From NCBI GenBank assembly GCA_947501445.1, contig CANMVS010000035.1, positions 1 to 32,937 on the forward strand: 32,937 bases of DNA. Direction: 5' to 3'. The position numbers and the translations under genes are program-made. The stretch is from an uncultured Rhizobiaceae group bacterium (GTDB lineage: Bacteria > Pseudomonadota > Alphaproteobacteria > Rhizobiales > Rhizobiaceae). This document shows positions 3,639 to 29,164 of the stretch, piece after piece. Under the pieces are notes generated by a model that did not search any database, had not been told where the DNA came from, and saw only the letters and a list, made by a program, of their open reading frames with translations. Position 1 is the stretch's first letter. Each line of letters opens with the position of its first letter.

Positions 3639-3732
3639 ATCTCCAAGTTGGGCGAATCATCGTGCGGCGCACGAACATGCTGTAACACTGCCGCGATGCT
3701 GGTGACCATCGTCTGACGCAACGCGAAATGGT

Positions 3733-4809: not shown

Positions 4810-4819
4810 GGGTTCTCCG

Positions 4820-7060: not shown

Positions 7061-7081
7061 AATGGTGTCGCAGTCAAATGA

Positions 7082-8107: not shown

Positions 8108-8187
8108 TAAAGTTCCTCCCGTTCGGTCCTGCCGGAACAAATTTTCCAGAACGTTTCAGTTCGGAATATTTCTTCCGTCACATTCAT

Positions 8188-12884: not shown

Positions 12885-13460
12885 TTAAAACATCTCCCGA
12901 TAGGAGCGATATTCAAGCACAGACGATGACAGGCCAAGCGTGTCAGCCAAAGCTTCAATCTTGCCAGCCAACATGGGCAGCAACGCCTGGTCATTTGTCA
13001 TGACTGCAAGCTCTACATAGTGGCCAAGCTCCGGCACCTGATCCAGCGTAATGTGGAAAAGGTCCAGAAAATAGATATCACGCTGTTTGCTGATTTGCCT
13101 TGTTTGCGCAAAACCAAGAGACCGCAACATGGCTTTGGCCTTTTCCAGATCACTCAGATCCATCGCAACACACCGATCCGGCCCCGGCCCCTTGCTGATC
13201 CACAAAACCCGGTCAGAAGGTTGCATATGCCGCAAGACCTGAAACTGATCATTATGAGCCAGCCGTGCATCGTCAAAATCGTAAAAGAAATCCGTTTCAA
13301 AATTGCCAAGTGTAAAAGCAACCGCACCTAGCCCCCCTAGACGCCTGCGCACCGGCGCAATATCATCAACGGCATATTTGCGCTCAACCTCGAAGTCACC
13401 AACAAAATGATCACCCGGATCAACCAGCATCCCCTTGTTTGAAAGTGTCGATGACGTCAT
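12885..13460 (-). CDS. CYTH domain protein (class IV adenylate cyclase / triphosphatase superfamily)
   Basis: The 191-residue protein has the defining ExExK motif as EVERK (Glu24, Glu26, Lys28). Later charged strands and HYVELAV match the beta-barrel tunnel of CYTH enzymes. Members include CyaB adenylate cyclases, thiamine triphosphatase and inorganic triphosphatases, all metal-dependent and acting on triphosphates. This short single-domain form lacks a CHAD domain. The ATG at 13458-13460 has AAGGA ten bases upstream. It lies between the GST gene (70 bp upstream) and the SDR gene on the same strand. Nothing here shows which triphosphate it uses. Confidence 0.78.
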   Translation of the reverse strand: MTSSTLSNKGMLVDPGDHFVGDFEVERKYAVDDIAPVRRRLGGLGAVAFTLGNFETDFFYDFDDARLAHNDQFQVLRHMQPSDRVLWISKGPGPDRCVAMDLSDLEKAKAMLRSLGFAQTRQISKQRDIYFLDLFHITLDQVPELGHYVELAVMTNDQALLPMLAGKIEALADTLGLSSSVLEYRSYREMF

Positions 13461-13530
13461 GGCGCATGGTCCTTCGGTGTGCTGCGACCTGTCACTGCGG
13501 TCCATCCATATGCCTCATCAATGGGCCCCA

Positions 13531-16876: not shown

Positions 16877-16905
16877 TTGACAAGACGAAATGATTATAAT
16901 TAAAT
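16877..16905 (+). promoter_or_regulatory. Candidate promoter of the ten-gene catabolic operon
   Basis: A perfect TTGACA at 16877-16882 is followed after 17 bases by TTAAAT at 16900-16905 (four of six matches), in an AT-rich stretch 35 bp before the first gene. No operator or regulator gene was recognised beside it. Confidence 0.5.
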
Positions 16906-16939
16906 TGTATTTACAAATTTAAAAAGGCGTTTCGGTGTA

Positions 16940-17695
16940 ATGGCAATTCTGGACTACAATCCTGACATATGGCGCCATGCTCTGGACCTTGGCGATGCAG
17001 CCCCACCGGCAGCCCTGATCCTTGAAGGAACATGGTGGCGCGAGAAAGCGACGGCCAACCGCCTGTCTCATCTTGATAATGTTCGTGAATTGAATTTTCC
17101 CGATATGTTTGCCGGTGAATGGCAGGGTACAAATATTGTCTATTGTTGCGCCTATGGTGCGGCGCGGGCGGTTGAGCCCGCTCATATATTTGCCCAATTG
17201 GGAACCCCACTGATGGTGCAGATCGGCACCTGCGGAACTCTGGATATGGCAACGACAACCGGCATGGTCATGCTGCCCGAAGTCTGCGCCGCCAGAGATG
17301 GTATTTCGCAGATATACGGAGCAGAACCCCAGGTACATACGGATCCACACTGGGTTGCCCGTGCTGAGGCGCATTTGCGTGATAAAAACATCAAGACCGC
17401 GCGGGCAAGTCATTTGACATGGCCAAGTCTTTTCGCACAATCGGATGAAATATGCGCAGGCTGGATGGATGAAGGTCTGGAATCGGTGGATATGGAAACA
17501 TCTGCTGTGATCGCAGCCGCCGGTTATTTTGGGGCGTCAACAGTCTCGCTCCTGTCCGTCTGGGACGCTTTGCCGCGCGGGCGTACTTTCATGGACCCGC
17601 TATCGGAAGAAGAAGCAGCCGCTCTGCACCGGTCTAACGAGATTGTGTATGATGTCGCTCTTCAATTAGCCAGGGAGGCTGACACAATACGCTAG
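16940..17695 (+). CDS. Nucleoside phosphorylase family protein (PNP/UDP superfamily)
   Basis: The 251-residue protein shows PNP_UDP_1 features: QIGTCGT at 94-100 (phosphate/sugar loop), VDMETSAV at 183-190, which in this family contacts the ribose, and a late acidic residue at WDAL (Asp209) that could contact the base. Relatives split nucleosides with phosphate into a base and a sugar-1-phosphate. The N-terminal 60 residues do not match a subfamily I know, so the substrate is open. It is the first gene of the plus-strand run, 54 bp before the binding protein, and is preceded by the candidate promoter at 16877. The ribosome-binding site is weak. Confidence 0.75.
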   Translation: MAILDYNPDIWRHALDLGDAAPPAALILEGTWWREKATANRLSHLDNVRELNFPDMFAGEWQGTNIVYCCAYGAARAVEPAHIFAQLGTPLMVQIGTCGTLDMATTTGMVMLPEVCAARDGISQIYGAEPQVHTDPHWVARAEAHLRDKNIKTARASHLTWPSLFAQSDEICAGWMDEGLESVDMETSAVIAAAGYFGASTVSLLSVWDALPRGRTFMDPLSEEEAAALHRSNEIVYDVALQLAREADTIR

Positions 17696-17749
17696 AACAT
17701 ACACTGAGAATGAAACTGAATTTCCAATGAGCAATATCTGGGAGGATAC

Positions 17750-18982
17750 ATGAGACACCTATTGATAACGACCCTTATGGCATCGACATTTGCAATGTCG
17801 TCCCATGCGGCCTTTGCCGATACAGCCGATGGCGATTCGCTCATTGGCAAACCGTGGGAAGAAATCACCGCGGCGGCTAAAGGTGGCGAAGTCAACTGGT
17901 TCCTGTGGGGCGGTTCAGACTCAATCAACCAATATGTCTCCGAATATATTGGCGGCATTCTCAAGGACAAATATGACATCACCCTCAATCGCGTCGGCCT
18001 GTCCGACACGGTTGAAGGCGTCAATATTGTTCTGGGTGAGAAGGAGGCCGGTGTCACCGACAAGGGATCGGTTGATATGATCTGGATCAACGGCGAGAAC
18101 TTCCGCACGATGAAACAGGGTGGCCTTGCCTTTTGCGGCTACACCGAAACACTGCCCAACAACGCCTTGGTGAACTGGGATAATCCGGCAATTGCCAATG
18201 ACTTTGGTGTTCCGGTCGACGGCTGTGAGGTGCCCTGGTCCAAGGCGCAATTCGCCTTTGCCTATGATACGGCCCGCACTGAAAACCCGCCACGTTCCAT
18301 TGCAGAACTGATTGAGTGGGTAAAGGCCAATCCCGGCCAGTTCACCTATCCTGCGCCACCGGATTTCAATGGCTCGGTTTTTGTCCGACACGTGTTCTAC
18401 CACGCTGCTGGCGGCGCCGAAAATCTACTGGGTCCGTTCGATCAGGCCAAATATGATGAGGTATCGGCCAAGACCTGGCAGATTCTCAACGATATGGAGC
18501 CCTATTTGTGGCGTGAGGGCAAAACCTATCCGGCCTCAATCGCTGCGCTGGAACAGCTTTATGCCAACTCGGAAGTTGACTTGACCTTCAACTATGAGCC
18601 GGCTGGTGTTGGCCTCAATATCGAAAATGGAACATTCCCGCCGACCACGCAGGGCTACGGGTTGACGGATGGAACAATTGGCAACACCAATTACACCATC
18701 ATTCCATTCAATTCGCCCAATAAGGCGGCCGCACTTGTATTGCAAAACGTGCTGCTGTCTGGCGAGGCACAGGCGCAAAAGGCACTGCCCGATGTATGGG
18801 GCACTCAGCCGGCAATTGAGGTTGATCGCACGTCGGATGACGTTCAGGCCGTATTTGCCAGCATCAAGAAACATCCCGCTGTTGTTGACCCAAAGGAACT
18901 GGCCAAAAACTCGCTTCCCGAGCTGCAGGCTTCCTGGATTTCCGCCATCGAAAAAGGCTGGTTGGATAACGTCGGAAAATAA
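17750..18982 (+). CDS. YnjB-like ABC transporter substrate-binding protein
   Basis: The 410-residue protein starts with a Sec signal peptide cleaved after about residue 23 (HAAFA). The mature part matches my recollection of Escherichia coli YnjB closely: WFLWGGSDSIN near 50-60, GSVDMIWINGENFRT near 104-118, ETLPN, YPAPPDFNGS and PYLWREGK. YnjB is the periplasmic receptor of an ABC importer of unknown substrate. GGGAGGA stands just before ATG 17750. The genes for two permeases and an ATPase follow, separated by a stable hairpin, and then enzymes for a phosphorylated ketose. The ligand is therefore probably a polyol, sugar or sugar derivative. Confidence 0.9.
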   Translation: MRHLLITTLMASTFAMSSHAAFADTADGDSLIGKPWEEITAAAKGGEVNWFLWGGSDSINQYVSEYIGGILKDKYDITLNRVGLSDTVEGVNIVLGEKEAGVTDKGSVDMIWINGENFRTMKQGGLAFCGYTETLPNNALVNWDNPAIANDFGVPVDGCEVPWSKAQFAFAYDTARTENPPRSIAELIEWVKANPGQFTYPAPPDFNGSVFVRHVFYHAAGGAENLLGPFDQAKYDEVSAKTWQILNDMEPYLWREGKTYPASIAALEQLYANSEVDLTFNYEPAGVGLNIENGTFPPTTQGYGLTDGTIGNTNYTIIPFNSPNKAAALVLQNVLLSGEAQAQKALPDVWGTQPAIEVDRTSDDVQAVFASIKKHPAVVDPKELAKNSLPELQASWISAIEKGWLDNVGK

Positions 18983-18998
18983 ACTCCGTTGAAACATT

Positions 18999-19024
18999 CC
19001 CGCAGGGTTCACTTGCCCTGCGGG
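18999..19024 (+). other. Intra-operon stem-loop after the binding protein gene
   Basis: CCCGCAGGG (18999-19007) and CCCTGCGGG (19016-19024) form a perfect 9-bp GC-rich stem around an eight-base loop, 17 bp after the binding protein stop. No T-run follows, so it is more likely a message-stabilising or partial attenuation element than a full terminator. Such hairpins are known after binding protein genes, which need higher expression than their permeases. Confidence 0.65.
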
Positions 19025-19066
19025 GCGTAATTTACCCGGGCCACTCAGTTTGGAAACACGACCGGT

Positions 19067-19924
19067 ATGTCCGATAGACTGAAAATAACGCTTCTGCTGC
19101 TTCCCGCCATGTTGATCATTGTACTGCTGTTCTTTGGTGGACTTGCCATAGGGCTGATGCGCAGTTTCAACTATATGCCGGTCATTGGCCTGACAGAACC
19201 TGATCTGAGCGCCTATTTTTTGGTATTCACCGACCGCGAGTTCTATCTGTCATTCCTGCTGACATTCCATATTGCATTCACATCGACTGTCATATCCTCA
19301 ATTCTGGCAATCGGCGCAGCGCTGCTGCTGCGGCGCAACTTTGTCGGTCGTTCAATTGTGAATTTTCTGTTCCAGCTGAATTTGACCGTCCCGCATCTGG
19401 TTGGCGCAATCGGTATGCTCTATCTGTTTTCCCAATCCGGTTCATTTGCCCGGTTGGCAGCAGAATGGAACCTGATTGCCAAGCCAAGTCAATTTCCCGC
19501 ACTCGTATTTGACCCCTATGCCATCGGCATAATTCTGCAATATATCTGGAAAGAAATACCGTTCATCGGCGTTATCGTTCTGGCCAATATGCAGTCGATT
19601 GGCGAGGATTACGAGAGCGTTGCCCGCTCGCTGGGCGCCAGCCGTTGGCAGACTTTTCGCCACGTGTTGCTGCCACTCATTTTCCCGGGCGTTCTTTCAG
19701 CCTCTGTCATGGTGTTTGCTTTCACCTTTGGTGCCTATGAGATCCCTGCGCTGCTGGGTGCCAATTATCCGGCCGCGCTGCCGGTTCTGGCCTATCGCAA
19801 ATATACCGATGTCGACCTGGCTGCCCGACCTGAGGCCATGGCCATGGCGATCATCATCGCCATTCTCAGCGCCGTGATGATCTACATTTACATCCGCTAT
19901 TCACGCCGCAGGATCAGAGGCTGA
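19067..19924 (+). CDS. ABC transporter permease (first YnjC-like half)
   Basis: The 285-residue protein has about six membrane helices. The EAA loop EDYESVARSLGASRWQTF lies at 180-197, followed by LPLIFPG, the contact with the ATPase. It corresponds to one half of the fused E. coli YnjC permease; here the halves are separate genes. The chain ends in a strongly basic tail (RYSRRRIRG). Its stop is one base from the start of the second permease gene, so the two are translationally close. The ribosome-binding site before ATG 19067 is weak (GGAAA at some distance). Confidence 0.9.
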   Translation: MSDRLKITLLLLPAMLIIVLLFFGGLAIGLMRSFNYMPVIGLTEPDLSAYFLVFTDREFYLSFLLTFHIAFTSTVISSILAIGAALLLRRNFVGRSIVNFLFQLNLTVPHLVGAIGMLYLFSQSGSFARLAAEWNLIAKPSQFPALVFDPYAIGIILQYIWKEIPFIGVIVLANMQSIGEDYESVARSLGASRWQTFRHVLLPLIFPGVLSASVMVFAFTFGAYEIPALLGANYPAALPVLAYRKYTDVDLAARPEAMAMAIIIAILSAVMIYIYIRYSRRRIRG

Positions 19925-19925
19925 C

Positions 19926-20750
19926 ATGAGTACACGTAAAAGCCTTATAACAAGCAATCTGCGCGTTCTGACCGGCCTGGTGCTGATTACCTGGCTGATC
20001 CTGCCGTTGATCCCACTGGCAATCTGGTCTTTCGCAAGAGGCTGGTTTTTTCCCGATTTGCTGCCCAAAACCTGGTCATTGAACGCTTGGAACTATGCAT
20101 TGTCAGATACTGCCGGTGTCCTGGACAGTCTCTGGTTGACCATCGGCATATCCCTTGCGGCGACCGTGCTTTCAATACTCGTGGGCGTGCCCGCAGGCCG
20201 GGCCTTGGGGATGTATAAATTCAAGGGCAAGGAAATTGTCGAATTGATGATACTGGCGCCCACCATTGTGCCGGGCATTGCGGTCGTTCTGGGGATCCAC
20301 TCGGTGTTCATTTTCGTTGGCCTTAACAACACGGTTCCTGGCGTCATTCTCGTTCACCTTGTGCCCACATTGCCTTATATGGTTCTGGTGATGTCGGGTA
20401 TCTTTGCCAATTATGATGCCTCATTCGAGGCTCAGGCACGCAGCCTCGGCGCTTCGGCGCTCAAAACATTCTGGTATGTGACGCTGCCGGCGATCATGCC
20501 GGGAATCATTGTTGGCGGACTGTTTGCATTCCTGGTTTCGTGGAGCCAGTACATTTTGACTTTACTGATCGGCGGAGGGCGCGTCGTGACGCTGCCGTTG
20601 CTGCTGTTCAATTTTGCGACCTCGGGACGCAATGACATTACGGGCGCCATCGGCATGATCTACATATTGCCGGGGATCATCATTCTTCTTCTTACCGCGC
20701 GGCACCTGTCGGGCCGCAGTGGCGCTGTCGGAGGCTTCGGACAGATTTGA
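19926..20750 (+). CDS. ABC transporter permease (second YnjC-like half)
   Basis: The 274-residue protein has about six membrane helices and an EAA loop, FEAQARSLGASALKTFW, near 167-183, followed by LPAIMPG. It would form the inner-membrane channel as a heterodimer with the preceding permease. ATG 19926 has GAGG six bases upstream, inside the end of the previous gene. The stop overlaps the start of the ATPase gene, which points to coupled translation. Confidence 0.9.
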   Translation: MSTRKSLITSNLRVLTGLVLITWLILPLIPLAIWSFARGWFFPDLLPKTWSLNAWNYALSDTAGVLDSLWLTIGISLAATVLSILVGVPAGRALGMYKFKGKEIVELMILAPTIVPGIAVVLGIHSVFIFVGLNNTVPGVILVHLVPTLPYMVLVMSGIFANYDASFEAQARSLGASALKTFWYVTLPAIMPGIIVGGLFAFLVSWSQYILTLLIGGGRVVTLPLLLFNFATSGRNDITGAIGMIYILPGIIILLLTARHLSGRSGAVGGFGQI

Positions 20751-21790
20751 CACATGTATCCATCAAAGAACTGACCAAAGTCTATCCCGGCGCCAGCGAA
20801 CCCTCCCTTGACCGGCTTTCGCTGGAAATCCCAACCGGCGAATTGACGGCCCTGCTAGGACCATCGGGTTGTGGTAAAACCACGACAATGAAAATGATTG
20901 CCGGACTTCTGGATCCCACATCCGGCGATGTGACTTTCGACGGTCGTTCCATTTTGAAGGACAAGCCTGAAAACCGCGGTGTTGTGATGGTCTTTCAGAA
21001 CTACCTGCTTTTCCCCTATATGAGCGTCGCCGACAATATCGGCTTCGGCCTGAAGATGAGAAAAATGGACCCTGCAGAGATCAAGCGCCGGGTCGGCGAG
21101 ATGCTGGAACTGGTGAAACTTCCGGACCTTGGCAAACGCAAACCAAGTGCCCTGTCGGGCGGTCAGCAACAGCGTGTGGCACTTGCCAGAGCATTGATCG
21201 TACAGCCCAATGTGTTGCTGCTGGATGAGCCGCTGTCAAATCTCGATGCGCATTTGCGTTTCGAAATGCGCGATCTGATCCGGTCCCTGCAACAGGAAAT
21301 GGGCATCACCACGATTTTTGTGACCCATGATCAGGAAGAGGCCGTGGTTCTGGCGGATCGCGTTGCACTCATCCTTGATGGCTGCATGAAGCAATATGAC
21401 AATGCCGAAGCCTTCTACAAGCGCCCTGTCGATGAAGCAACGGCGCGTTTTTTTGGTGGCCAGAATTTCATGAGCGGAACCACCAGGGGTACCGTTTTCG
21501 AGGCTTCGTTCGGTCAATTACAGCTTGTCGAAGGCCTCAACCAGGGCAGTGGTGTCCTCACATTCAGACCAGAAAATGTACTGTTGAATGGTGATCCATC
21601 CGCACCCAACACACTGGAAGCCAATATTGCCGACAAAATCTATCTGGGGACCCAGACGCGGTTAAAACTTCGCATTGGCCAGGAGAATGTGGACATTATT
21701 ACCAACCCCAGCGACGTCGAAGGCCTGTCACCCGGTGATTTGATAAGGGTAACGCTGCCGCCACAAACACTTTGGATGCTGACATCGTAA
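20747..21790 (+). CDS. ABC transporter ATP-binding protein (YnjD-like position)
   Basis: The 347-residue ATPase has Walker A GPSGCGKTT at 38-46, signature LSGGQ at 136-140, Walker B LLLDEP at 157-162, switch His194 and a TOBE-like C-terminal part from about 265. The start is a TTG at 20747 overlapping the previous stop by four bases; no ATG or GTG lies close enough to keep the N-terminal strand THVSIKELTKVY. It would energise uptake of the ligand bound by the YnjB-like receptor. With its regulatory C-terminus it is longer than E. coli YnjD and closer to the sugar and polyamine importer ATPases. Confidence 0.92.
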   Translation: MTHVSIKELTKVYPGASEPSLDRLSLEIPTGELTALLGPSGCGKTTTMKMIAGLLDPTSGDVTFDGRSILKDKPENRGVVMVFQNYLLFPYMSVADNIGFGLKMRKMDPAEIKRRVGEMLELVKLPDLGKRKPSALSGGQQQRVALARALIVQPNVLLLDEPLSNLDAHLRFEMRDLIRSLQQEMGITTIFVTHDQEEAVVLADRVALILDGCMKQYDNAEAFYKRPVDEATARFFGGQNFMSGTTRGTVFEASFGQLQLVEGLNQGSGVLTFRPENVLLNGDPSAPNTLEANIADKIYLGTQTRLKLRIGQENVDIITNPSDVEGLSPGDLIRVTLPPQTLWMLTS

Positions 21791-21800
21791 AGGACGTACC

Positions 21801-22637
21801 ATGAAATACGGAATTCATGCCGGGCTGTGGATGGCACAGTGGACGGACGAAATCACCGGCATATTGAAAGTCGTTGCTGACCTTGGATTTGACGGCGTTG
21901 AAGTTTCACTGCTGGGAATGAGCGATGAAAAAGCACTGGCGCTTGGACAGGCCGTTCGTCATCACGGATTGGAAATAACCTGTTCCGACGGGCTGGCACC
22001 CGACAAGGATATCACATCGCCTGATCCACAGATTCGCGCCGCCGGTATCGATTATTTGCGTTGGGCCATTGCCACCACAGCAAAAATCGGATCCCGCGGT
22101 TTGGCAGGTGTGGTTTATGCACCCTGGGGTGTCTTTGATCCGGTGAATAAACCGGCACGCGCTGCGCGCTCAGCCGAAGCCTTTGCCGCTGTCAGTCCCG
22201 ATCTGGAAAACCATGACGTCACACTTGGTATTGAAGCCATCAATCGCTTTGAAACCGATCTGGTCAATACGGCTGCCGAGGCTGTCGCAATGGCAAAAGC
22301 ATCGGGGTCGGACCGTGTCGGTGCCCTGCTTGATACATTCCATTTGAATATCGAGGAAAAAGATATCGCGGCAGCCATAAAATGTGCTGCCGACACATTG
22401 GTGCATTTTCACGTGTCAGACAATGATCGCGGCGTTCCCGGCTCCGGTCATATACCGTGGCAAGAGGTTCGTGGTGCGCTGGACGATATCCGATATGACG
22501 GCTGGATCGTGGCGGAAATGTTTGTCATAGCCGGTAACCCCGCCAGCGCGGATCTGAACATCTGGCGCAATATCGAACCTGAAGCGACAGACGCCGCAGC
22601 CCGCGCATTATCTTTCATGAGACAGACATTCCAATGA
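21801..22637 (+). CDS. Sugar isomerase/epimerase, TIM-barrel (xylose isomerase-like / tagatose 3-epimerase-like)
   Basis: The 278-residue protein belongs to the AP_endonuc_2 TIM-barrel family. The metal-binding quartet of the D-tagatose 3-epimerase group is visible: Glu145 in GIEAIN, Asp178 in LLDTFHLN, His204 in HFHVSDND and Glu239 in VAEMF. Such enzymes move the keto group or invert C3 of a free or phosphorylated ketose using Mn2+ or Co2+. The gene starts 10 bp after the ATPase gene and its stop overlaps the DhaL-like start by four bases, so it belongs to the kinase and aldolase group. The exact sugar is not predictable. Confidence 0.87.
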   Translation: MKYGIHAGLWMAQWTDEITGILKVVADLGFDGVEVSLLGMSDEKALALGQAVRHHGLEITCSDGLAPDKDITSPDPQIRAAGIDYLRWAIATTAKIGSRGLAGVVYAPWGVFDPVNKPARAARSAEAFAAVSPDLENHDVTLGIEAINRFETDLVNTAAEAVAMAKASGSDRVGALLDTFHLNIEEKDIAAAIKCAADTLVHFHVSDNDRGVPGSGHIPWQEVRGALDDIRYDGWIVAEMFVIAGNPASADLNIWRNIEPEATDAAARALSFMRQTFQ

Positions 22638-23167
22638 ACGCTGCATTTCTCAACGCCTTGGTGAAACGATTTGAAGGTCTTGAACAACCGTTGAACCGGC
22701 TGGATGCAGCAACCGGTGATGGGGATCATGGTTCGACGATGTTGAAAGGGTTACGTGCAGCAGCTGAATCACCGCAGGCACCCGCAAAGGCATTTCGCAA
22801 GGCGGCAGGCGGCGCATCAGGCTCCCTGTTCAGCCTGCTGATTGGTGCACTCGATCAGGTTCTGCAGGGCGAAGCCAAATTGCCCGATGCACTGAGCAGG
22901 GCAGCGGACAGGGTTAATCAACTCGGGCAGGCAAAACCCGGCGACAAGACAATGCTGGATGCGCTTATACCGGCGGCAGCTCAGCCAGACGCTACACAGG
23001 CAGCAAAGGCTGCGCGCGCCGGGTGTGAAGGAACCCGATCAATGGCGGCAAAACGCGGTCGGGCGAGATATGTCGAAGGAGCCGGTGTCGGCCATATGGA
23101 TGCGGGCGCCACATCGGTCGCAGAAATTCTTGACGAATTTGCAAAGATCACGGCGGAGGACACATGA
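22634..23167 (+). CDS. DhaL-like (DAK2 domain) nucleotide-binding kinase subunit
   Basis: The 177-residue protein shows the DAK2 domain. TGDGDHGSTM at 28-36 supplies the Mg2+- and ADP-binding aspartates (with Asp24), then come GGASGSLF near 59, KPGDKTMLDAL near 101 and the C-terminal RGRARYVEGAGVGHMDAGA region. In ATP-dependent dihydroxyacetone kinases this domain carries the nucleotide while the K domain holds the ketone. The size is close to E. coli DhaL. Gene order is L before K, and both neighbours overlap it by four bases. No DhaM/PTS partner is near, so ATP is the likely phosphate donor. Confidence 0.9.
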   Translation: MNAAFLNALVKRFEGLEQPLNRLDAATGDGDHGSTMLKGLRAAAESPQAPAKAFRKAAGGASGSLFSLLIGALDQVLQGEAKLPDALSRAADRVNQLGQAKPGDKTMLDALIPAAAQPDATQAAKAARAGCEGTRSMAAKRGRARYVEGAGVGHMDAGATSVAEILDEFAKITAEDT

Positions 23168-24177
23168 AAAAGCTTTTCAACACAAAGGAACGAATGCCCG
23201 ACGATATGATTGACGGGTTCATTGCCGCCTTTCCGCATTGTGTCAGACGCGGTGACAACCCCCGGGTCGTAAGGCGCACCGAGCTTCGCACCAAAAATGA
23301 CAAAGTTGCACTGCTCATTGGCAACGGCTGTGGGCATGAACCCATAGCCATGGGATTTGTTGGTCAGGGGTTGCTCGACGCAAATGTGGTGGGCGATGTC
23401 TTCGCCGCACCCTCTGCAGACCATATTCTGGAAGGAATTGAAGAAGTAACCGGTGATGCCGGAGCTGTTTTGTTGATTTCACGCCACGAGGGCGATGTCA
23501 TCAATGGCAATGCTGCTGCCATGATGGCCGAAGACGACGGCCTGAATGTACGCCCGCTATTGATGTATGACGACATTTCATCTGCACCGAGGGGCCAGGA
23601 AGAAGATCGCCGTGGCGCTGCGGGAACGATGTTCATCTACAAGGTGCTGGGAGCCGCCGCGGAAGAAGGACAGGCACTGGATGAACTGGTTGCGCTGGGC
23701 GAAGATGTGCGCAGCAGAACCAGAACACTTGGTGCAGCGGTTTCACCGGGTGTCTCGCCTTTGACCGGCGAATTGATGTTCACATTGCCCGACGATGAGA
23801 TTTTTATCGGCATGGGCGTTCATGGTGAACCGGGTGTCGGGCGACGAAAAAACGGGCCGGTCAAAGATCTGGTTGCATTCATGGTTGAAGAAATACTCGC
23901 GGATCGGCCCATTGCGCCGGCAACACCGACGGTCGTGCTGGTAAACGGCTCCGGTGGAACCACCATGATGGAATTATTGACGATCCATGGTGAGGTGGCC
24001 CGCATTTTGGACGCGAAAGGCATTGAAACCACCTCGCCGATGATTGGTTCCTTCTCAACAACACAGGAAATGGGCGGATTTTCAATTTCGCTTTTCACAC
24101 CAACACCGCAAATGCTGCAATTATGGCGTGCGCCTCATGGCGCACCGCAGTTTCCCCGCATTTTTGGGGAGGCCTGA
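23164..24177 (+). CDS. DhaK-like ketose kinase, substrate-binding subunit
   Basis: The 337-residue protein aligns with DhaK. GNGCGHEP at 53-60 corresponds to GGGSGHEP, Asp111 in HEGDVIN corresponds to the catalytic aspartate, and His220 in GMGVHGEPG is the histidine that binds the keto group covalently. All three sit two residues later than recalled E. coli positions (56, 109, 218), so the catalytic set looks intact. DAK kinases phosphorylate the CH2OH next to a ketone and include enzymes for erythrulose as well as dihydroxyacetone. The aldolase that follows suggests a longer ketose-1-phosphate product. Its stop directly abuts the aldolase ATG. Confidence 0.9.
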   Translation: MKKLFNTKERMPDDMIDGFIAAFPHCVRRGDNPRVVRRTELRTKNDKVALLIGNGCGHEPIAMGFVGQGLLDANVVGDVFAAPSADHILEGIEEVTGDAGAVLLISRHEGDVINGNAAAMMAEDDGLNVRPLLMYDDISSAPRGQEEDRRGAAGTMFIYKVLGAAAEEGQALDELVALGEDVRSRTRTLGAAVSPGVSPLTGELMFTLPDDEIFIGMGVHGEPGVGRRKNGPVKDLVAFMVEEILADRPIAPATPTVVLVNGSGGTTMMELLTIHGEVARILDAKGIETTSPMIGSFSTTQEMGGFSISLFTPTPQMLQLWRAPHGAPQFPRIFGEA

Positions 24178-25074
24178 ATGGAGAAGATCATTCACGGTGT
24201 TGCTGTTGACGCCGGCAGCGGACTGGAAGCTGCCATACGAAAGGCGCGCGGCGGCAACAGCACGGGCAGCGATTTGCTGACCTTCAAAAGGGCGGTGCTG
24301 GAAGTGCTGGGAACCGATGCCAGCACGGTGCTGGTCGACGCGGCCTGTGGAAGCGATCTTGTAAACCACTATCCTGACAATTGCGCCCCCATGATCGCCT
24401 ATGAGGCCGATGTCTATCATATCTCGGACGATGACCGAATAACGGTCCTGCCAGACACTTTGTCCTATGCAGACTATGGCCCGCTCGGTGTCAGCCAGCT
24501 GAAATTCTTCATGTACTATGCACCCGATGACGATGCGGCATTGAACGCGCGCAAACAGGCGTTGGTTGCGACCGTCGGACAAGGATGCCGCGAGAATGAT
24601 CTGCGTTACCTGATGGAACCGCTGGTCTATCACCCGACCGTGGAACCGGGCACAGCCGAATATGCGGCCCTGAAACCGGACCTGGTGCGGCGAAGCACGC
24701 AGGTTTTTGCAGACCCTAAGTTTCAGGCGGATGTTTTGAAGGTCGAAATTCCTGTCGATCTGAATTTTGTCGAAGGGTTCGGCGAACCCCTCATGACCCG
24801 ACAGGCTGCGTTGCAGGCATTCAGGGACGCTGCAGAACCGGCAGCGGAGCACGAGCTGGTCTACCTGAGCGCTGGCGTTGCCTTTGAGTGGTTCGAAGCT
24901 TCGCTGCAGATGGCCCGTGAGGCAGGTGTCTGTTTTAATGGCTTCATGTGTGGCCGGGCCATCTGGGCCGATTCCATTGAAGTATTCGGCAAATCCGGCG
25001 AAACCGGCCTGCGTGACTGGCTTGCAGGTACCGGGCGTACTCGTCTTCGTCGCCTGATTGCAACATTGCAGTGA
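24178..25074 (+). CDS. LacD-like class I aldolase (tagatose 1,6-bisphosphate aldolase family)
   Basis: The 298-residue protein resembles the DeoC/LacD class I aldolases. VDAACGSDL lies at 53-61, QLKFFMYY at 107-114, MEPLVYHP at 146-153, DVLKVEIPVD at 185-194 with Lys188 as the likely Schiff-base lysine, YLSAGV at 229-234 and FNGFMCGRAIW at 253-263. LacD cleaves tagatose 1,6-bisphosphate, and relatives act on other ketose phosphates, including sulfofructose-1-phosphate (YihT). After a DAK-type kinase the natural substrate would be a ketose-1-phosphate giving dihydroxyacetone phosphate and an aldehyde. It starts immediately after the DhaK-like stop and ends 11 bp before the SDR start. Confidence 0.88.
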   Translation: MEKIIHGVAVDAGSGLEAAIRKARGGNSTGSDLLTFKRAVLEVLGTDASTVLVDAACGSDLVNHYPDNCAPMIAYEADVYHISDDDRITVLPDTLSYADYGPLGVSQLKFFMYYAPDDDAALNARKQALVATVGQGCRENDLRYLMEPLVYHPTVEPGTAEYAALKPDLVRRSTQVFADPKFQADVLKVEIPVDLNFVEGFGEPLMTRQAALQAFRDAAEPAAEHELVYLSAGVAFEWFEASLQMAREAGVCFNGFMCGRAIWADSIEVFGKSGETGLRDWLAGTGRTRLRRLIATLQ

Positions 25075-25085
25075 AAGGACGCACT

Positions 25086-25847
25086 ATGCTGAAGGGAAAA
25101 CTTGCAATTGTTACCGGTGGGGCAAGCGGTAACGGCCGGGCCATCTGTCAGGTTTTCGCCAGAAACGGCGCAAAAGTCATCGTCGCGGACCTGCATGAGA
25201 CCGGTCGTGAAGGCGGCACACCCACAGCCGGTTTGGTCAATGCTGAATACCCTGGCATGGCACAGTTTGTTCGATGTGATGTCAGCAAGGTCAGCGATCT
25301 TGAGGCGCTGATCGCAGCAGCCGAAGCCTGGGGCGGTCTGGATATTATGGTCAACAATGCGGGCATCCTGCAAAAGGAGCCCATCCTTGAGGCAACGGAA
25401 GAAACGTTCCATCGCATGGTTGATGTGAACGTCAAAAGTGTGTTCTTCGGGTCGCAACTTGCCGCCAAAGCAATGGTAAGACGCAAAGCAGGTGTCATCA
25501 TCAATATGTGCTCCATCGCCGGAATGCGCGGCACCGGAGGCTTTTCCCATTACAATCTTACCAAAGGTGCTGTGCGGTTATTGACGTACTCTCTGGCTGA
25601 CGAATTGGGCCCGCATGGCATTCGGGTCAACAATGTCAACCCGGGCATCATGCGCACGCAGATGAATATTGAGGACGACCCGGTTATCGGCACGGAAACC
25701 GGTGAGGGTTACCTTGATATGATACCCGCCCGACGTTGGGGTGAGCCGGAGGAAGTCGCTGATGCCTGTGTCTATCTGGCGTCGGATTTATCAAAATACG
25801 TCATGGGCACATCGCTGATCGTCGATGGCGGCTATTTGCGTATATAG
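25086..25847 (+). CDS. SDR family oxidoreductase (last gene of the catabolic operon)
   Basis: The 253-residue short-chain dehydrogenase has TGGASGNG at about 11-18, NNAG near 91, a catalytic Ser near 143 in NMCSIAG, YNLTK as the YxxxK pair near 156-160, and the usual C-terminal GTSLIVDGG. ATG 25086 with AAAGGA seven bases upstream is preferred to the GTG at 25071, which overlaps the aldolase stop. In this setting it probably oxidises a polyol or sugar alcohol to the ketose, or reduces the aldehyde made by the aldolase. The TAG stop coincides with the first bases of repeat copy E. Confidence 0.9.
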   Translation: MLKGKLAIVTGGASGNGRAICQVFARNGAKVIVADLHETGREGGTPTAGLVNAEYPGMAQFVRCDVSKVSDLEALIAAAEAWGGLDIMVNNAGILQKEPILEATEETFHRMVDVNVKSVFFGSQLAAKAMVRRKAGVIINMCSIAGMRGTGGFSHYNLTKGAVRLLTYSLADELGPHGIRVNNVNPGIMRTQMNIEDDPVIGTETGEGYLDMIPARRWGEPEEVADACVYLASDLSKYVMGTSLIVDGGYLRI

Positions 25848-25930: not shown

Positions 25931-26156
25931 TGTTCGGTGATGAGATTGTGGCTCCGACAGATGATAGGTAACCGCAATGTGGTTTTGTCGCCGCATCGCG
26001 TTCACGCACGCAAACAATGTAGCACTAATCCATTAAGTTATAATATATAAGACTTGATTGTGACGCCCGCTTATAGAATGGTTCACACTGGGCAATTTTA
26101 CGGCGCCGCCGTGATTATTCAATTGTCTTGGAGCAATGACCCGGGAGGAACCTGTC
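25931..26156. other. Intergenic region upstream of the TTT transporter
   Basis: Together with repeat E this makes a gap of about 309 bases without a credible gene. It contains an AT-rich patch with a TATAAT at 26039-26044 but no matching -35 box at normal distance, so no promoter is called. Small frames here have no ribosome-binding site and no recognisable content. The strong GGGAGGA before 26157 serves the TctC-like gene. Confidence 0.4.
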
Positions 26157-27110
26157 ATGAGAAAAGCATTTTACGTTGCCGCTGTGATCGCCACAGCATT
26201 GGGATCGGGAGCAGCAATGGCTGCAGACTATCCATCCAAATCCGTTGATTATGTAATTCCATTTGGACCGGGTGGTGAGTCTGACGTCACCGCGCGTTTG
26301 CAGCAGCCCTATTTCAAGGACAAATTCGGGCAGGACCTTGTCGTATCCTATAAACCCGGTGGCGGCGGCGCCGTTGGCTGGTCCCAGCTTAACGGTATGG
26401 GTGGTGACGGTCATTCGATCATGGGCATCAACCTGCCGCATATTGTTGTCAAACCGAAACAGGGCGAAGTCGGTTTTCAGACCGAGGATGTGACCGCTGT
26501 CTATATGTTTCACTACACCCCGGACGCTATTGTGGTGAATGCCAACAGCAATCTGAAATCACTGCAGGACCTGGTTGACTATGCCAAAGCCAATCCAAAA
26601 CGCCTGACAATGTCCGGTTCCGGCAAGGGAACGGCCAATCATCTGGCACAGGTCATATTTGATCAGATGGCGTATATTGAAACCACCTATGTTGCCTTCA
26701 AGGGCACCGGTGCCGCCGTAACTGCACTGCTGGGCAATCAGGTTGCCGCGGAATGGGGTTACACAACAGTGGGTGCCAAACAGGGTGACAAGGTCCGTAT
26801 GCTGGCTGTTGCCATGGAAGAACGCCATCCGGCCTTTCCTGATGTCCCCACTTTCAAGGAGCTGGGCTATGACATGGTCTCAGGTGCCTACCGCGGCATT
26901 GCAGTGCCAAAATCAACACCAGAGGATGTGCGACAGGCGCTGTCCGGCATGATTGCCGAGATCAACGCCGATCCGGCATTTCAAAAACAAATGCTCGATG
27001 GTGGGTTTGCCATGGTTGATGTTGCCTATGGTGCAGACATGGACGCATTCATGGCTGAAAAATCCACCGAATATCTGGCTGCGGCCAAAAATGCGGACGT
27101 CATTGACTAA
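26157..27110 (+). CDS. TctC-like periplasmic receptor of a tripartite tricarboxylate transporter (Bug family)
   Basis: The 317-residue protein has a Sec signal peptide (MRKAFYVAAV, cleavage near AAMA-A at about residue 22). The Bug-family start YPSKSVDYVIPFGPGG with the following ARL and the loop YKPGGGGAVGW contact a carboxylate ligand. GGGAGGA lies before ATG 26157, so the frame's earlier ATG at 26136 is dropped. It delivers a dicarboxylate, tricarboxylate or similar acid to the membrane component encoded 86 bp downstream. The ligand cannot be read from sequence, since this family has many members of mixed specificity. Confidence 0.92.
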   Translation: MRKAFYVAAVIATALGSGAAMAADYPSKSVDYVIPFGPGGESDVTARLQQPYFKDKFGQDLVVSYKPGGGGAVGWSQLNGMGGDGHSIMGINLPHIVVKPKQGEVGFQTEDVTAVYMFHYTPDAIVVNANSNLKSLQDLVDYAKANPKRLTMSGSGKGTANHLAQVIFDQMAYIETTYVAFKGTGAAVTALLGNQVAAEWGYTTVGAKQGDKVRMLAVAMEERHPAFPDVPTFKELGYDMVSGAYRGIAVPKSTPEDVRQALSGMIAEINADPAFQKQMLDGGFAMVDVAYGADMDAFMAEKSTEYLAAAKNADVID

Positions 27111-27196
27111 AACCATCTGCGCGTCGCATTGATCAGTCTTTATTGCGGACTGCCGTGCGATGCGCACCCATTTCCCGTGAACTGCCGGAACGGTCC

Positions 27197-29164
27197 ATGT
27201 TTGACTATCTGATCGCCGCATTCTCTCCGTTTAACATTCTTTTGGCTGTGCTGGGTGTCGCGGCCGGTACCGTTATCGGCTCGATACCCGGACTAACGGC
27301 AACGATGGCCGTCGCGGTTCTTGTACCCATTACATTTTCCATGCAGCCTGATTCAGCACTGATCCTGATGGGTGCCATCTATACCGGTGCCATCTATGGC
27401 GGGGCCTATGCCGCCATTTTGCTCAATACGCCGGGCACGCCATCTGCCATTGCCACAACATTTGACGGCTACCCGATGGCCAAACGCGGCGATGGCGATC
27501 TGGCCATATCCATTGCCTGCCTTTCCAGTGTTGTCGGCGGTCTCATCGGTGCGCTGGCGCTGCTTTTTCTTGCCCCACCACTGGCAGACGCGGCACTGGC
27601 GTTTGGACCTGTTGAATATTTTTGGCTTGCAGTCTTTGGGTTATCGTTGATTGCGGCGCTTTCGGACGGCGATTTTCTGAAGGGTGTTATTGCAGCCTGT
27701 TTCGGGCTTTTGCTGGCCATGATCGGCATATCAGAAACCAGCGCTGAAGTGCGCTTTACATTCGGCTCAAACACATTGCTGGGCGGGATTGAAGTCGTAT
27801 CGGCCTTGATAGGGCTCTATTGTATTCCGGTTCTGATTGATCTTGTGGCAACGCCCGACCGGCACCTCAATCCACCCGAAGCGCAACGCGGCATCCGCCT
27901 GCCCGAAGCGCTGAAAACGCTGGCCCGCAACAAGTGGAACCTGTTGCGCAGCTCTGTCATCGGCACATTTGTCGGGGCGTTGCCCGGTGCCGGCGGCTCC
28001 ATAGCAGGGCTTGTTGCCTATTCGGAAGCACGGCGCTCGGCAAAGGATTCCAATGCCTATGGCAAGGGCGAGCCAGGCGGCGTTATCGCCACTGAATCGG
28101 CCAATAATGCCACGGTGGGCGGCGGTTTCATCCCGACACTGGTACTGGGTATTCCTGGCACACCGCCCGATGCCGTCATTCTGGGCGCACTGCTGGTACA
28201 GGGTGTGCGCACTGGTCCGACGCTTTTCACTGACGGTGCCAATATCGTCTATACATTCATATTCGGGCTGCTGCTTGCGACACTATTGATGCTGCCTGTA
28301 GGGCTGCTCATCGGCCGATTTGCCTATGGCGCCATTGTACGCGCGCCGAAATCCGCTCTGGTGCCGATTGTCGCGTTCATGACGGTGATCGGTGCCTTTG
28401 CCATTCGTAATTCCCTGTCCGATGTCCTTATCATGATTGTCCTGGGTATTGTGGGCTGGGTTGCCTCCAAACGCGGGTTTTCGGTCTCTCCCATCGTGCT
28501 CGGATTGATCCTTGGGCGCATAGCCGAGCAGGGTTTCGTGCAAAGCTGGACAATTGGTGAGGCTTTGGGTGATCTGTGGGGTCAGTTCTTCGGCAGGCCG
28601 CTGTCACTTGTTATTATTGCCATGACATTGATTACCTTCATCTATCCATTCGCGCCAAAAATCAAAGGCCTGTTGCGCGGTAAAAATAACGGCGCTGGTC
28701 AACAAAGTGAGCGTGCATCCTGGCCCGCCATTGCCTCGGAACTGGTTTCTCTGCTGGCGTTCGCCCTGATCGCAGGAATTGTGCTGGTGCAGTCCGGCGC
28801 ATTGAATGCGGAAGCAGCCGTATTCCCGCAGACAATAGCGTGGGGAATGGCGGTTTTTGTGGTGATCGCCATCGTGCGCCTGCTGACGACCCGACATGTC
28901 AGCGCAATGGCCAGCGGCGGTTCCGTGGCCCGCCGGACGGCAGTTCCGGTGATTATGCTGGCAACGGTTGGCCTTGTTCCCCTGTTGGGCTTTGGTGCTG
29001 CCGGTGCTGTGATGGGGCTGGCGCTCATATTTGTGGCGCAATACGAAAAGCAGTCGCTTCGCGCCACCTGCATTCTTGTGGCATGCGTGGTGGCGGTCAT
29101 TGCGGCATTTACACTCGGGTTTCGAAATGTCCTTGATGTACCACTGCCCGGCGGCCTGTTTTGA
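27197..29164 (+). CDS. TctA-TctB fusion, membrane component of the tripartite tricarboxylate transporter
   Basis: At 655 residues this joins two proteins that are normally separate. Residues 1 to about 493 are TctA, with the conserved GSIPGLTATM near the N-terminus, LLNTPGTPSAIATTFDGYPM near residue 80, and GALPGAGGSIAG and LGIPGTPPDAV in the second half. After a polar linker (about 494-508) a domain with four hydrophobic segments ending VPLPGGLF matches TctB. ATG 27197 begins MFDYLIAAFSPFNILL, a typical TctA start. The fused chain would form the sodium- or proton-coupled permease working with the TctC-like receptor. No frameshift or sequence break is visible at the join. Confidence 0.9.
   Translation: MFDYLIAAFSPFNILLAVLGVAAGTVIGSIPGLTATMAVAVLVPITFSMQPDSALILMGAIYTGAIYGGAYAAILLNTPGTPSAIATTFDGYPMAKRGDGDLAISIACLSSVVGGLIGALALLFLAPPLADAALAFGPVEYFWLAVFGLSLIAALSDGDFLKGVIAACFGLLLAMIGISETSAEVRFTFGSNTLLGGIEVVSALIGLYCIPVLIDLVATPDRHLNPPEAQRGIRLPEALKTLARNKWNLLRSSVIGTFVGALPGAGGSIAGLVAYSEARRSAKDSNAYGKGEPGGVIATESANNATVGGGFIPTLVLGIPGTPPDAVILGALLVQGVRTGPTLFTDGANIVYTFIFGLLLATLLMLPVGLLIGRFAYGAIVRAPKSALVPIVAFMTVIGAFAIRNSLSDVLIMIVLGIVGWVASKRGFSVSPIVLGLILGRIAEQGFVQSWTIGEALGDLWGQFFGRPLSLVIIAMTLITFIYPFAPKIKGLLRGKNNGAGQQSERASWPAIASELVSLLAFALIAGIVLVQSGALNAEAAVFPQTIAWGMAVFVVIAIVRLLTTRHVSAMASGGSVARRTAVPVIMLATVGLVPLLGFGAAGAVMGLALIFVAQYEKQSLRATCILVACVVAVIAAFTLGFRNVLDVPLPGGLF

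Follow-up and report, generated by a model that had tools for sequence, protein, structure and literature searches.

A ten-gene operon for a YnjB-type importer, a DhaKL kinase and a LacD-like aldolase as one half of a predicted two-operon regulon and candidate arsenosugar degradation pathway

The sulfoglycolytic Embden-Meyerhof-Parnas (sulfo-EMP) pathway employs a sulfoquinovose (SQ) isomerase, a PfkB-type sulfofructose (SF) kinase and a LacD/YihT-type aldolase of SF phosphate, and in the dihydroxyacetone phosphate (DHAP) shunt, which handles 5-deoxyribose and methylthioribose, isomerisation of the ribose-1-phosphate precedes cleavage by a class II aldolase. Arsenic resistance operons, a system of a different kind, detoxify inorganic or methyl arsenicals. 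Arsenosugars are the main form of arsenic in edible seaweed. According to one source (PMC7345539) they predominate among the arsenic species of marine algae, and two others (PMC5478658, PMC6656958) state that in people they give rise to dimethylarsinate (DMA), dimethylarsinoylethanol (DMAE) and dimethylarsinoylacetate (DMAA), mostly in thio forms. Here we analyse a ten-gene operon of an uncultured Rhizobiaceae bacterium, located at positions 16940-25847 of a stretch of 32,937 nucleotides (hereafter the window) that comprises the whole of contig C35 (CANMVS010000035.1) of a 6.8-Mb genome, and compare it with these systems.

The operon is half of a larger, two-operon functional unit: the unit extends beyond 16940-25847 because an operator precedes the operon at 16903-16918 and contig C10 of the host genome carries a partner operon. 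Together the two gene sets probably specify one conserved pathway of marine bacteria for a 5-substituted 5-deoxyribofuranoside and, if they do, the substituent X is again probably arsenic; taken overall, arsenosugars (dimethylarsinoyl-ribosides) of marine algae are therefore the substrate that we favour, by a modest balance of probability. The more specific proposal, that these genes are the first genetic route to be found for the breakdown of arsenosugars and break the carbon-arsenic (C-As) bond of a coenzyme A (CoA) thioester, dimethylarsinoylacetyl-CoA, to give acetyl-CoA and dimethylarsinate, is put forward tentatively, at slightly less than an even chance. The case is built from sequence, namely gene content, linkage, a common operator and active-site substitutions, from which we infer every reaction of the pathway as well as the identity of X as arsenic.

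The genes and sites of the operon, with families assigned by scans against NCBIfam and Pfam profiles, are as follows.

16877-16906, + strand: promoter-like site TTGACA-18-TAAATT, a consensus match whose second hexamer overlaps the operator
16903-16918, no strand assigned: operator AATTGTATTTACAAAT, one mismatch relative to ATTTGTNNNNACAAAT, 21 bp upstream of the first ATG
16940-17695, + strand: protein of the purine nucleoside phosphorylase (PNP)/UDP-phosphorylase superfamily (PNP_UDP_1, 57.3 bits), predicted nucleosidase or phosphorylase of the substrate furanoside
17750-18982, + strand: YnjB-like periplasmic substrate-binding protein (YnjB-type PRK11622, 472.9 bits, cut-off 203)
19067-19924, + strand: permease 1 of the ABC importer, BPD permease family
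19926-20750, + strand: permease 2 of the ABC importer, BPD permease family
20747-21790, + strand: ATPase of the ABC importer, with a TOBE domain (NCBIfam/Pfam)
21801-22637, + strand: xylose-isomerase-like TIM barrel of the D-tagatose/D-psicose 3-epimerase family, predicted C3 epimerase of a ketose
22634-23167, + strand: DhaL-type nucleotide-binding kinase subunit, GDGDHG motif retained
23164-24177, + strand: DhaK-type ketone-binding kinase subunit, His of 'MGVHGEPG' retained, predicted to phosphorylate a ketose at C1
24178-25074, + strand: LacD-like class I aldolase, Lys of 'LKVE' retained, predicted to convert a ketose-1-phosphate to DHAP and X-acetaldehyde
25071-25847, + strand: short-chain dehydrogenase/reductase (SDR), predicted either to reduce the aldehyde, which would give dimethylarsinoylethanol, or to have the sugar or aglycone as its substrate

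The ten open reading frames (ORFs) fill the interval on the + strand, with joints of -4 to +84 bp: PNP-YnjB +54, YnjB-permease 1 +84, permease 1-permease 2 +1, permease 2-ATPase -4, ATPase-epimerase +10, epimerase-DhaL -4, DhaL-DhaK -4, DhaK-aldolase 0 and aldolase-SDR -4. The first-pass annotation of the window, which had described ten genes with gaps of at most 84 bp and with overlaps or gaps of at most 11 bp at the last seven joints, agrees with the ORF coordinates, and its family names for all ten genes are upheld by the profile scans. The epimerase is a remote member of its family (233.8 bits against a D-psicose-3-epimerase-like equivalog with a cut-off of 300; best match among solved structures, 178.9 bits). 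The aldolase reaches the LacD-like family PRK12858 (240.5 bits, cut-off 184) and stays below the tagatose-bisphosphate aldolase equivalog TIGR01232 (179.3 bits, cut-off 432.2). The YnjB-like receptor has no relative among solved structures at E-values up to 0.01. No DhaM is encoded among the ORFs of the operon, the rest of the genome not having been searched for this protein. The scan for promoter-like consensus sites returned 8 against 6.7 in shuffled sequences, close to background, so that this site is weak when taken alone.

The partner operon occupies 49.9-57.4 kb of C10, where genes for a thiolase homologue, a DUF35 protein, a CoA ligase, a GntR regulator, an isomerase related to FucI and SftI, and a nucleoside-hydrolase-like protein follow one another on one strand. 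The best matches of the host genome to three of these families are found there (isomerase 63 %, nucleoside-hydrolase-like protein 58 % and thiolase homologue 60 % identity to the query family members). A 16-bp palindrome is common to both host operons and can be generalised to ATTTGT-N4-ACAAAT. Across 61 loci from related genomes (1.12 Mb), described below, this pattern yields 101 sites, 32 exact and 69 with one mismatch, of which 96 fall within -250 to +60 bp relative to a pathway ORF start; mononucleotide shuffles produce on average 0.33 one-mismatch sites and no exact ones, other spacers from 0 to 10 give at most 4 sites each, and reversed half-sites give none. The operator is carried by 50 of the 61 loci and precedes genes for proteins of the major facilitator superfamily (MFS), the thiolase homologue, the PNP-like protein or receptor, the epimerase and the ATPase. 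The sole exact site of the host genome is upstream of the C10 gene for the thiolase homologue, the window site having one mismatch. With up to one mismatch, the host genome has 22 palindromic places against 12 for the reversed control, that is, about twice the control, and therefore the exact site alone is informative by itself in this genome. In a set of 22 genomes, operator sites occur in 21 and reversed-control sites in 2, some of the sites being distant from the pathway. Given the common operator, both operons appear to be jointly regulated as one regulon, and the GntR-UTRA protein, judging from its linkage, is probably the repressor that acts at this site. In one genome (L183 6724-10495, G602:C1) an operator-like site precedes the gene for another YnjB-like receptor (67 % identity), and the next ORF resembles, by eye, a periplasmic cyclic-nucleotide phosphodiesterase/5'-nucleotidase; the substrate may be handled here in a phosphodiester form.

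The 61 loci are genome contigs that were scanned with an aldolase alignment and whose genes were counted by BLAST and clustering, after opposite-strand ORFs of real genes, which inflated several clusters, had been set aside by eye; they are mostly labelled as Rhodobacteraceae and kin, Rhizobiales, Granulosicoccaceae and SAR116. By these counts, DhaK is present in all 61 loci, an aldolase ORF and DhaL in 60 each, the epimerase, the isomerase and the ATPase in 58 each, the YnjB-like receptor in 54 and GntR in 53. The genes of the partner operon are nearly as constant (nucleoside-hydrolase-like protein 51, CoA ligase 50, thiolase homologue 49, DUF35 49). Less constant are an aldehyde dehydrogenase (ALDH, 23 loci), two MFS types (type 26 in 18 loci, type 31 in 16), the PNP-like protein (14), a GH51-like protein (5) and the SDR (16 by BLAST, with distant SDRs counted in). 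Loci without some partner include very short contigs (L052, L053, L059, L060, L085, L103). In three plasmid copies, those of Marinovum algicola DG 898, Parasedimentitalea marina and Paracoccus seriniphilus, the whole set stands in one row, which runs MFS, thiolase homologue, DUF35, ligase, epimerase, DhaL, DhaK, aldolase and, in two of the three, ALDH, followed by GntR, isomerase, ATPase, receptor, two permeases and nucleoside hydrolase. Across the loci, ALDH comes immediately after the aldolase in one arrangement and is an immediate neighbour of the CoA ligase in others.

The linkage of the aldolase to the thiolase homologue extends to whole genomes. The epimerase-DhaL-DhaK-aldolase block is intact in all seven same-genus relatives, whose aldolases are 53-75 % identical, and is found again in most of the 61 loci, more often than chance would allow. 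Among 101 related genomes the thiolase homologue (57-69 % identity) is found in exactly the 8 that carry this aldolase subfamily; the other 93 have no such homologue, a 46 % identical paralogue being present in G098 alone. When 385 genomes were sampled evenly across the class, 3 matched at E-values up to 1e-80, the host genome itself and two at 44-47 %. The thiolase homologue is present in 15 of the 19 genomes searched whole, and 8 of the 12 loci without the gene have one elsewhere in the genome and 4 do not (L045 and L046 are counted among the 8 via genomes G003 and G002).

Some loci carry additional genes. Five (L045, L046, L049, L057, L071) have no PNP-like gene and have, between permease 2 and the ATPase, an ORF of ~650 aa whose C-terminal two thirds give a GH51/ArfA-like match. 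One genome contains a second LacD-like aldolase with an SftI-like isomerase (L043 8637-12740 and L116, G000:C7), in a cluster that also includes, by eye, ORFs for a PfkB kinase and a tripartite ATP-independent periplasmic (TRAP) transporter and looks like a sulfoquinovose (sulfo-EMP) cluster; the same genome has a second DhaK/DhaL pair (~35 % identity) adjoining ABC-transporter ATPase genes (L044 11002-14650, G000:C38). In L077 and L078 (1441-4300), and in these two loci only, genes for a 4-hydroxybenzoate 3-monooxygenase and a Bcr/CflA-type MFS protein lie just upstream of the gene for the thiolase homologue; at 2 of 61 loci, the hydroxylase was rejected as a pathway member.

The active sites of the encoded proteins give the direction of the chemistry. 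The residues in question are the ketone-binding His of DhaK, the Asp motif of DhaL and the Schiff-base Lys of the LacD family. The His and the Asp motif are both retained, and the Lys of LKVE aligns with that of the solved structure 3kao (239.9 bits) and is invariant in 8 aldolases, so that phosphorylation at C1 and cleavage to DHAP are to be expected. In nucleoside hydrolases the Glu of the AEFN motif binds the 5'-OH and the His of the HD motif protonates the leaving group. The nucleoside-hydrolase-like protein retains the metal-binding Asp residues (DTD(T/A)ANEIDDQ and the Asp of WD), and in an alignment of 48 sequences 'AEFN' has become 'SLN' and 'HD' has become 'WD', with Leu in place of the Glu and Trp in place of the His relative to E. 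coli RihA, RihB and RihC. (In the full cluster, 10 of 56 ORFs lack 'PSLNLVQD', including true variants such as ASLNLVQD in L070 and, in all likelihood, mis-called ORFs; the 48-sequence alignment is cleaner.) Because the AEFN Glu and the HD His are replaced, these substitutions suggest a 5'-substituted, non-nucleobase substrate. In the PNP-like protein, Gln takes the place of the Arg of 'RVGTCG' in 15 of 15 aligned sequences, that of the window included.

The CoA branch is equally distinctive. WWMTE is the motif of acetyl-CoA synthetase. In the ligase, which scores highest against the NCBIfam model of acetate-CoA ligase and there reaches half the cut-off, FYG(M/L)TE replaces WWMTE in 46 of 48 sequences, which suggests an acid larger than acetate. 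In the thiolase homologue, the nucleophilic Cys is Gly and the His of GHPxGATG is Ala in 47 of 49 sequences; an ordinary thiolase is thereby rejected. The motif E-(V/L/I)-Y-D-(A/S)-(Y/F) is found in 48 of 49, and a zf-ChsH2/DUF35 gene is adjacent. Ltp2 and Sal are thiolase-like acyl-CoA aldolases that cleave carbon-carbon (C-C) bonds and whose Tyr is essential (PMC12329534). The second catalytic residue is Cys304 in Sal and Tyr344 in Ltp2; at the position of Cys304 the homologue has Ala or Ser. Since ALDH follows the aldolase or adjoins the ligase, the order aldehyde, acid, CoA ester, lyase is suggested.

On this basis the following pathway is proposed. The ABC importer would take up the 5-substituted furanoside, and the nucleoside-hydrolase-like, PNP-like or GH51-like enzyme would free the sugar from the aglycone, with the help of a sulfatase in some genomes. 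The SftI/FucI-like isomerase would then produce 5-deoxy-5-dimethylarsinoyl-ribulose, to be epimerised at C3, phosphorylated at C1 by DhaKL and split by the LacD-like aldolase into DHAP and dimethylarsinoylacetaldehyde, which ALDH might oxidise to dimethylarsinoylacetate or the SDR reduce to dimethylarsinoylethanol. The AMP-forming ligase would convert dimethylarsinoylacetate to its CoA ester, and the Cys-less thiolase homologue with DUF35 would cleave the C-As bond in a retro-aldol manner to acetyl-CoA and dimethylarsinate, the arsenical being finally exported by an MFS protein. A lyase acting on X-acetyl-CoA implies that X must be an electrophile next to the alpha carbon, and the dimethylarsinoyl group fits. 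The predicted intermediates coincide with DMAE and DMAA, and the predicted end product with DMA, of the known arsenosugar products, as given for people in the sources cited above. Much of the scheme that the first-pass annotation had drawn for the operon survives in this proposal, namely the import of a sugar derivative and, as predicted steps, ketose formation, C1 phosphorylation by a DAK kinase and cleavage to DHAP and an aldehyde, to which a dedicated aldose-ketose isomerase encoded on C10 can be added. Its view of the operon as a complete, self-contained route for a polyol or plain sugar was rejected: the ligase, lyase, DUF35, hydrolase, isomerase and regulator lie outside the operon, as partners that share its operator.

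The evidence for arsenic is circumstantial. In G005, which has the gene order of the window, ArsR-, ArsC- and aquaporin-like genes stand beside the isomerase gene with an operator in between; they were encountered by following an operator site. In L101/L184, where the ars genes came from a search for ArsC in 39 genomes, ArsJ (508.3 bits, cut-off 400) and ArsJ-type glyceraldehyde-3-phosphate dehydrogenase (GAPDH; 528.8 bits, cut-off 450) adjoin the hydrolase gene, as does an ArsR-ArsC fusion (58 bits for ArsR, over the cut-off of 55; 58.9 bits for ArsC, under 174.3). The roughly expected number of ArsC genes within 5 kb of the pathway, at 10 kb per 4.5 Mb and 28 genomes, is ~0.06. For the MFS protein at the head of the plasmid operons, ArsK is the sole curated match at E-values up to 1e-8 (75.1-102 bits, cut-off 400), and in the MFS type with most such ties ArsK is the best curated family in each of six proteins scored singly (L067, L074, L090 and the three plasmid copies; 63.5-173.3 bits, cut-off 400). 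The scans covered 29 of the 34 ORFs of the two MFS groups; 17 of the 29 proteins match ArsK, and 17 of the 29 are of the ArsK-like type. A sulfatase gene, with no visible signal peptide, is clustered with the pathway in 5 loci and in 4 of these, three of them labelled as SAR116, faces the gene for the thiolase homologue across an operator; such an enzyme would suit a sulfated arsenosugar. At a remote locus, G098:C7 (L148 1399-19649), a ligase/thiolase-like/DUF35/TRAP set without the sugar module lies 2.3-4.1 kb from genes for betaine-homocysteine methyltransferase (452 bits, cut-off 338), ArsH (374.7, cut-off 292.25) and an ArsK-like MFS protein (213.7, cut-off 400), a set such as an arsenobetaine route would require, and may be a candidate locus of arsenobetaine degradation; this link between arsenobetaine degraders and the ligase-thiolase set is an unregistered idea. 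The locus also encodes a corrinoid-type methyltransferase (212 of 259 bits) and an aquaporin.

A series of observations weighs against the arsenosugar proposal. The profile scan named no arsenic family for those window genes that it covered, and among 74 stretches, some of them overlapping, queries for ArsJ, ArsR-ArsC, ArsC, AqpS and ArsH found nothing in 72, C10 included, matching only in L101 and L182 (the latter from G005). The three ars-type genes of G005 all score under the curated cut-offs (ArsR-like 52.4 bits, cut-off 55; ArsC-like 73.2, cut-off 174.3; aquaporin-like 88.8, cut-off 171.25), an ArsC relative is present in 28 of the 39 genomes and near the pathway in only 2 (positions compared by hand), the ArsK-like MFS scores all fall short of the cut-off, and the other MFS type (16 loci) resembles lactate transporters more closely. 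No match to ArsC, AqpS or ArsH turned up in four further remote loci with thiolase and ligase homologues; among remote loci there are a TRAP receptor in L133 and L155, an ABC set in L157, an acyl-CoA dehydrogenase in L133 and, read by eye, hydratase-like ORFs in L132 and L133, and the dehydrogenase and hydratase-like genes imply that the chemistry may be a plain C-C retro-aldol. A fold search with the model of the thiolase homologue retrieved thiolases in general, true thiolases outranking Ltp2 (rank 24) and Sal (rank 41). ALDH was called in only 23 of the 61 loci, and the sole host ALDH encountered is 38 % identical and in another cluster, in a genome that was not searched for ALDH.

Several of these points bear on a pathway of the same logic for a 5-substituent bearing carbon, sulfur or phosphorus, in which the aldehyde would lead to a beta-hydroxy-type acyl-CoA and the thiolase homologue would perform a true retro-aldol cleavage. 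We hold this to be unlikely, although the least so of the alternatives weighed here. The company that relatives of the ligase-thiolase-DUF35 set keep in remote loci (TRAP or ABC transporters, the acyl-CoA dehydrogenase, hydratase-like ORFs) would suit it, as would the relationship of the isomerase to sulfoquinovose isomerase, and the bonds broken by Ltp2 and Sal are C-C bonds (PMC12329534). The ars-type genes that adjoin the pathway in two genomes and the ArsK-like character of one exporter type argue for arsenic instead. A sulfonate in particular is weakened as a substituent: the isomerase is SftI-like, yet the annotation of the plasmid copies (n=3) names no Xsc or sulfite exporter, no profile search for these having been run. 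Nor do we know of an abundant marine ribofuranoside, 5-C- or 5-S-substituted, that has the beta-electrophile required, which counts against such a substrate. An improbable alternative is that the fates are split, the acyl-CoA branch serving an acidic aglycone and the aldolase branch turning a plain pentose into DHAP and glycolaldehyde. Three kinds of furanoside-cleaving enzyme occur in the loci (PNP-like, hydrolase-like and GH51-like) and the 4-hydroxybenzoate hydroxylase gene is found upstream in two of them, but that gene is confined to these 2 of 61 loci, the hydrolase has lost the AEFN Glu at the aligned position, and the position of ALDH, next to the aldolase in some loci and next to the ligase elsewhere, suggests a single series of reactions.

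The plain-sugar scheme of the first-pass annotation, in which a sugar or polyol becomes a ketose, is phosphorylated at C1 and yields DHAP with glycolaldehyde or lactaldehyde within a self-complete operon, is slightly less probable still. Ketose-1-phosphate routes are known, an analogy that counts in its favour together with the adjacency of the epimerase, DAK pair, LacD-like aldolase and SDR; it leaves, however, no role for the co-occurring, operator-sharing ligase, thiolase-like lyase and DUF35, and the SDR is found in only the 16 loci mentioned above. We give least credence to a DAK/LacD form of the DHAP shunt that would salvage 5'-deoxyadenosine or methylthioadenosine and release acetaldehyde or methylthioacetaldehyde. 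PNP-like and nucleoside-hydrolase-like enzymes accompany a ketose-1-phosphate aldolase, as such salvage would have it, and acetate-CoA ligase is the family nearest to the ligase; against this, the ligase is without the Trp motif of acetyl-CoA synthetases, which weakens acetaldehyde from 5-deoxyribose as the product, salvage needs no dedicated importer, exporter or Cys-less lyase, and 5'-deoxyadenosine and methylthioadenosine are universal by-products, which counts against a gene set as narrowly distributed as this one (8 of 101 related genomes).

Beyond the operon, the window encodes a TctC receptor and a TctA permease on the same strand (26136-29164), beginning 288 bp past the operon; they have no match in the 61 loci, and a Tct set is nonetheless found near the Paracoccus seriniphilus copy. 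On the - strand there are an ABC importer (SBP_bac_6 receptor, 746-aa permease and TOBE ATPase) adjoining a gene of the inositol monophosphatase family (2838-8140) and a near-cut-off match to the class IV adenylate cyclase CyaB (12885-13505; 52.2 of 57.95 bits).

Among the papers listed in a literature search conducted largely without subscription journals and preprints, we found no genetic pathway for arsenosugar catabolism, no genes assigned to the known breakdown products DMA, DMAE and DMAA, and no publication linking YnjB with dihydroxyacetone kinase or Roseobacter with arsenosugars, or dealing with dimethylarsinoylacetic acid or with the nucleoside hydrolase residues; none of the curated families names the pathway. 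Dimethylarsinoyl-ethanol and -acetate have been proposed as precursors of arsenobetaine. If the more specific proposal, with C-As cleavage at the CoA ester, is true, the pathway run in part would supply both, the ligase/thiolase-like/DUF35 set of G098 would finish arsenobetaine degradation, and C-As cleavage through a CoA thioester would be new enzymology that bears on the origin of arsenobetaine in seafood. The defined operator, the importer and culturable carriers such as Devosia algicola, Marinovum algicola DG 898 and Paracoccus seriniphilus DSM 14827 make the question of arsenosugar breakdown directly testable. Even without arsenic, what emerges is a conserved pathway of more than 10 genes that includes a thiolase homologue devoid of the Cys and a relative of nucleoside hydrolases whose 5'-OH site is changed, and to which no substrate has been assigned so far.

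Compared with known systems, the importer resembles E. coli YnjBCD in its receptor, which is 36 % identical to YnjB, and differs from it in the rest: E. coli has one permease of 511 aa (YnjC), an ATPase of 217 aa (YnjD) and other neighbours, whereas the window encodes two separate permeases and a TOBE-bearing ATPase of 347 aa. The first-pass idea that this neighbourhood could give YnjBCD a substrate thus fails on architecture and gene context. Genes of the types found in arsenic resistance operons (arsR-arsC-aqpS; arsJ-GAPDH; arsH; arsK) are neighbours of the pathway in two genomes and, in a third, of a remote ligase-thiolase locus; they lie outside the conserved regulon. The thiolase homologue shares with Ltp2 and Sal the thiolase fold, the DUF35/zf-ChsH2 partner, a Tyr-Asp motif and the absence of the thiolase Cys (PMC12329534); no steroid genes are recognised near the loci, and the third motif residue is Ala or Ser and not the Cys or His of Ltp2 and Sal, so that the catalytic acid must differ. 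With the DHAP shunt the proposed pathway would have in common the splitting of a 5-substituted pentose, as ketose-1-phosphate, into DHAP and a two-carbon-based aldehyde, and it would differ in its free-sugar isomerase, DhaKL, class I aldolase and additional CoA branch. The likeness to sulfo-EMP consists in an SftI-related isomerase, a C1 kinase and an aldolase of the LacD superfamily that would release DHAP and a hetero-substituted aldehyde. The kinase here is DhaKL and not PfkB, a 3-epimerase is present, a nucleoside-hydrolase-like enzyme would supply the sugar, and the aldehyde would be passed on to a CoA ligase and a thiolase-like lyase. The parts are thus of known kinds, and it is the combination of DhaKL, furanoside cleavage and a CoA-lyase branch that sets this gene set apart from both sulfo-EMP and the DHAP shunt.

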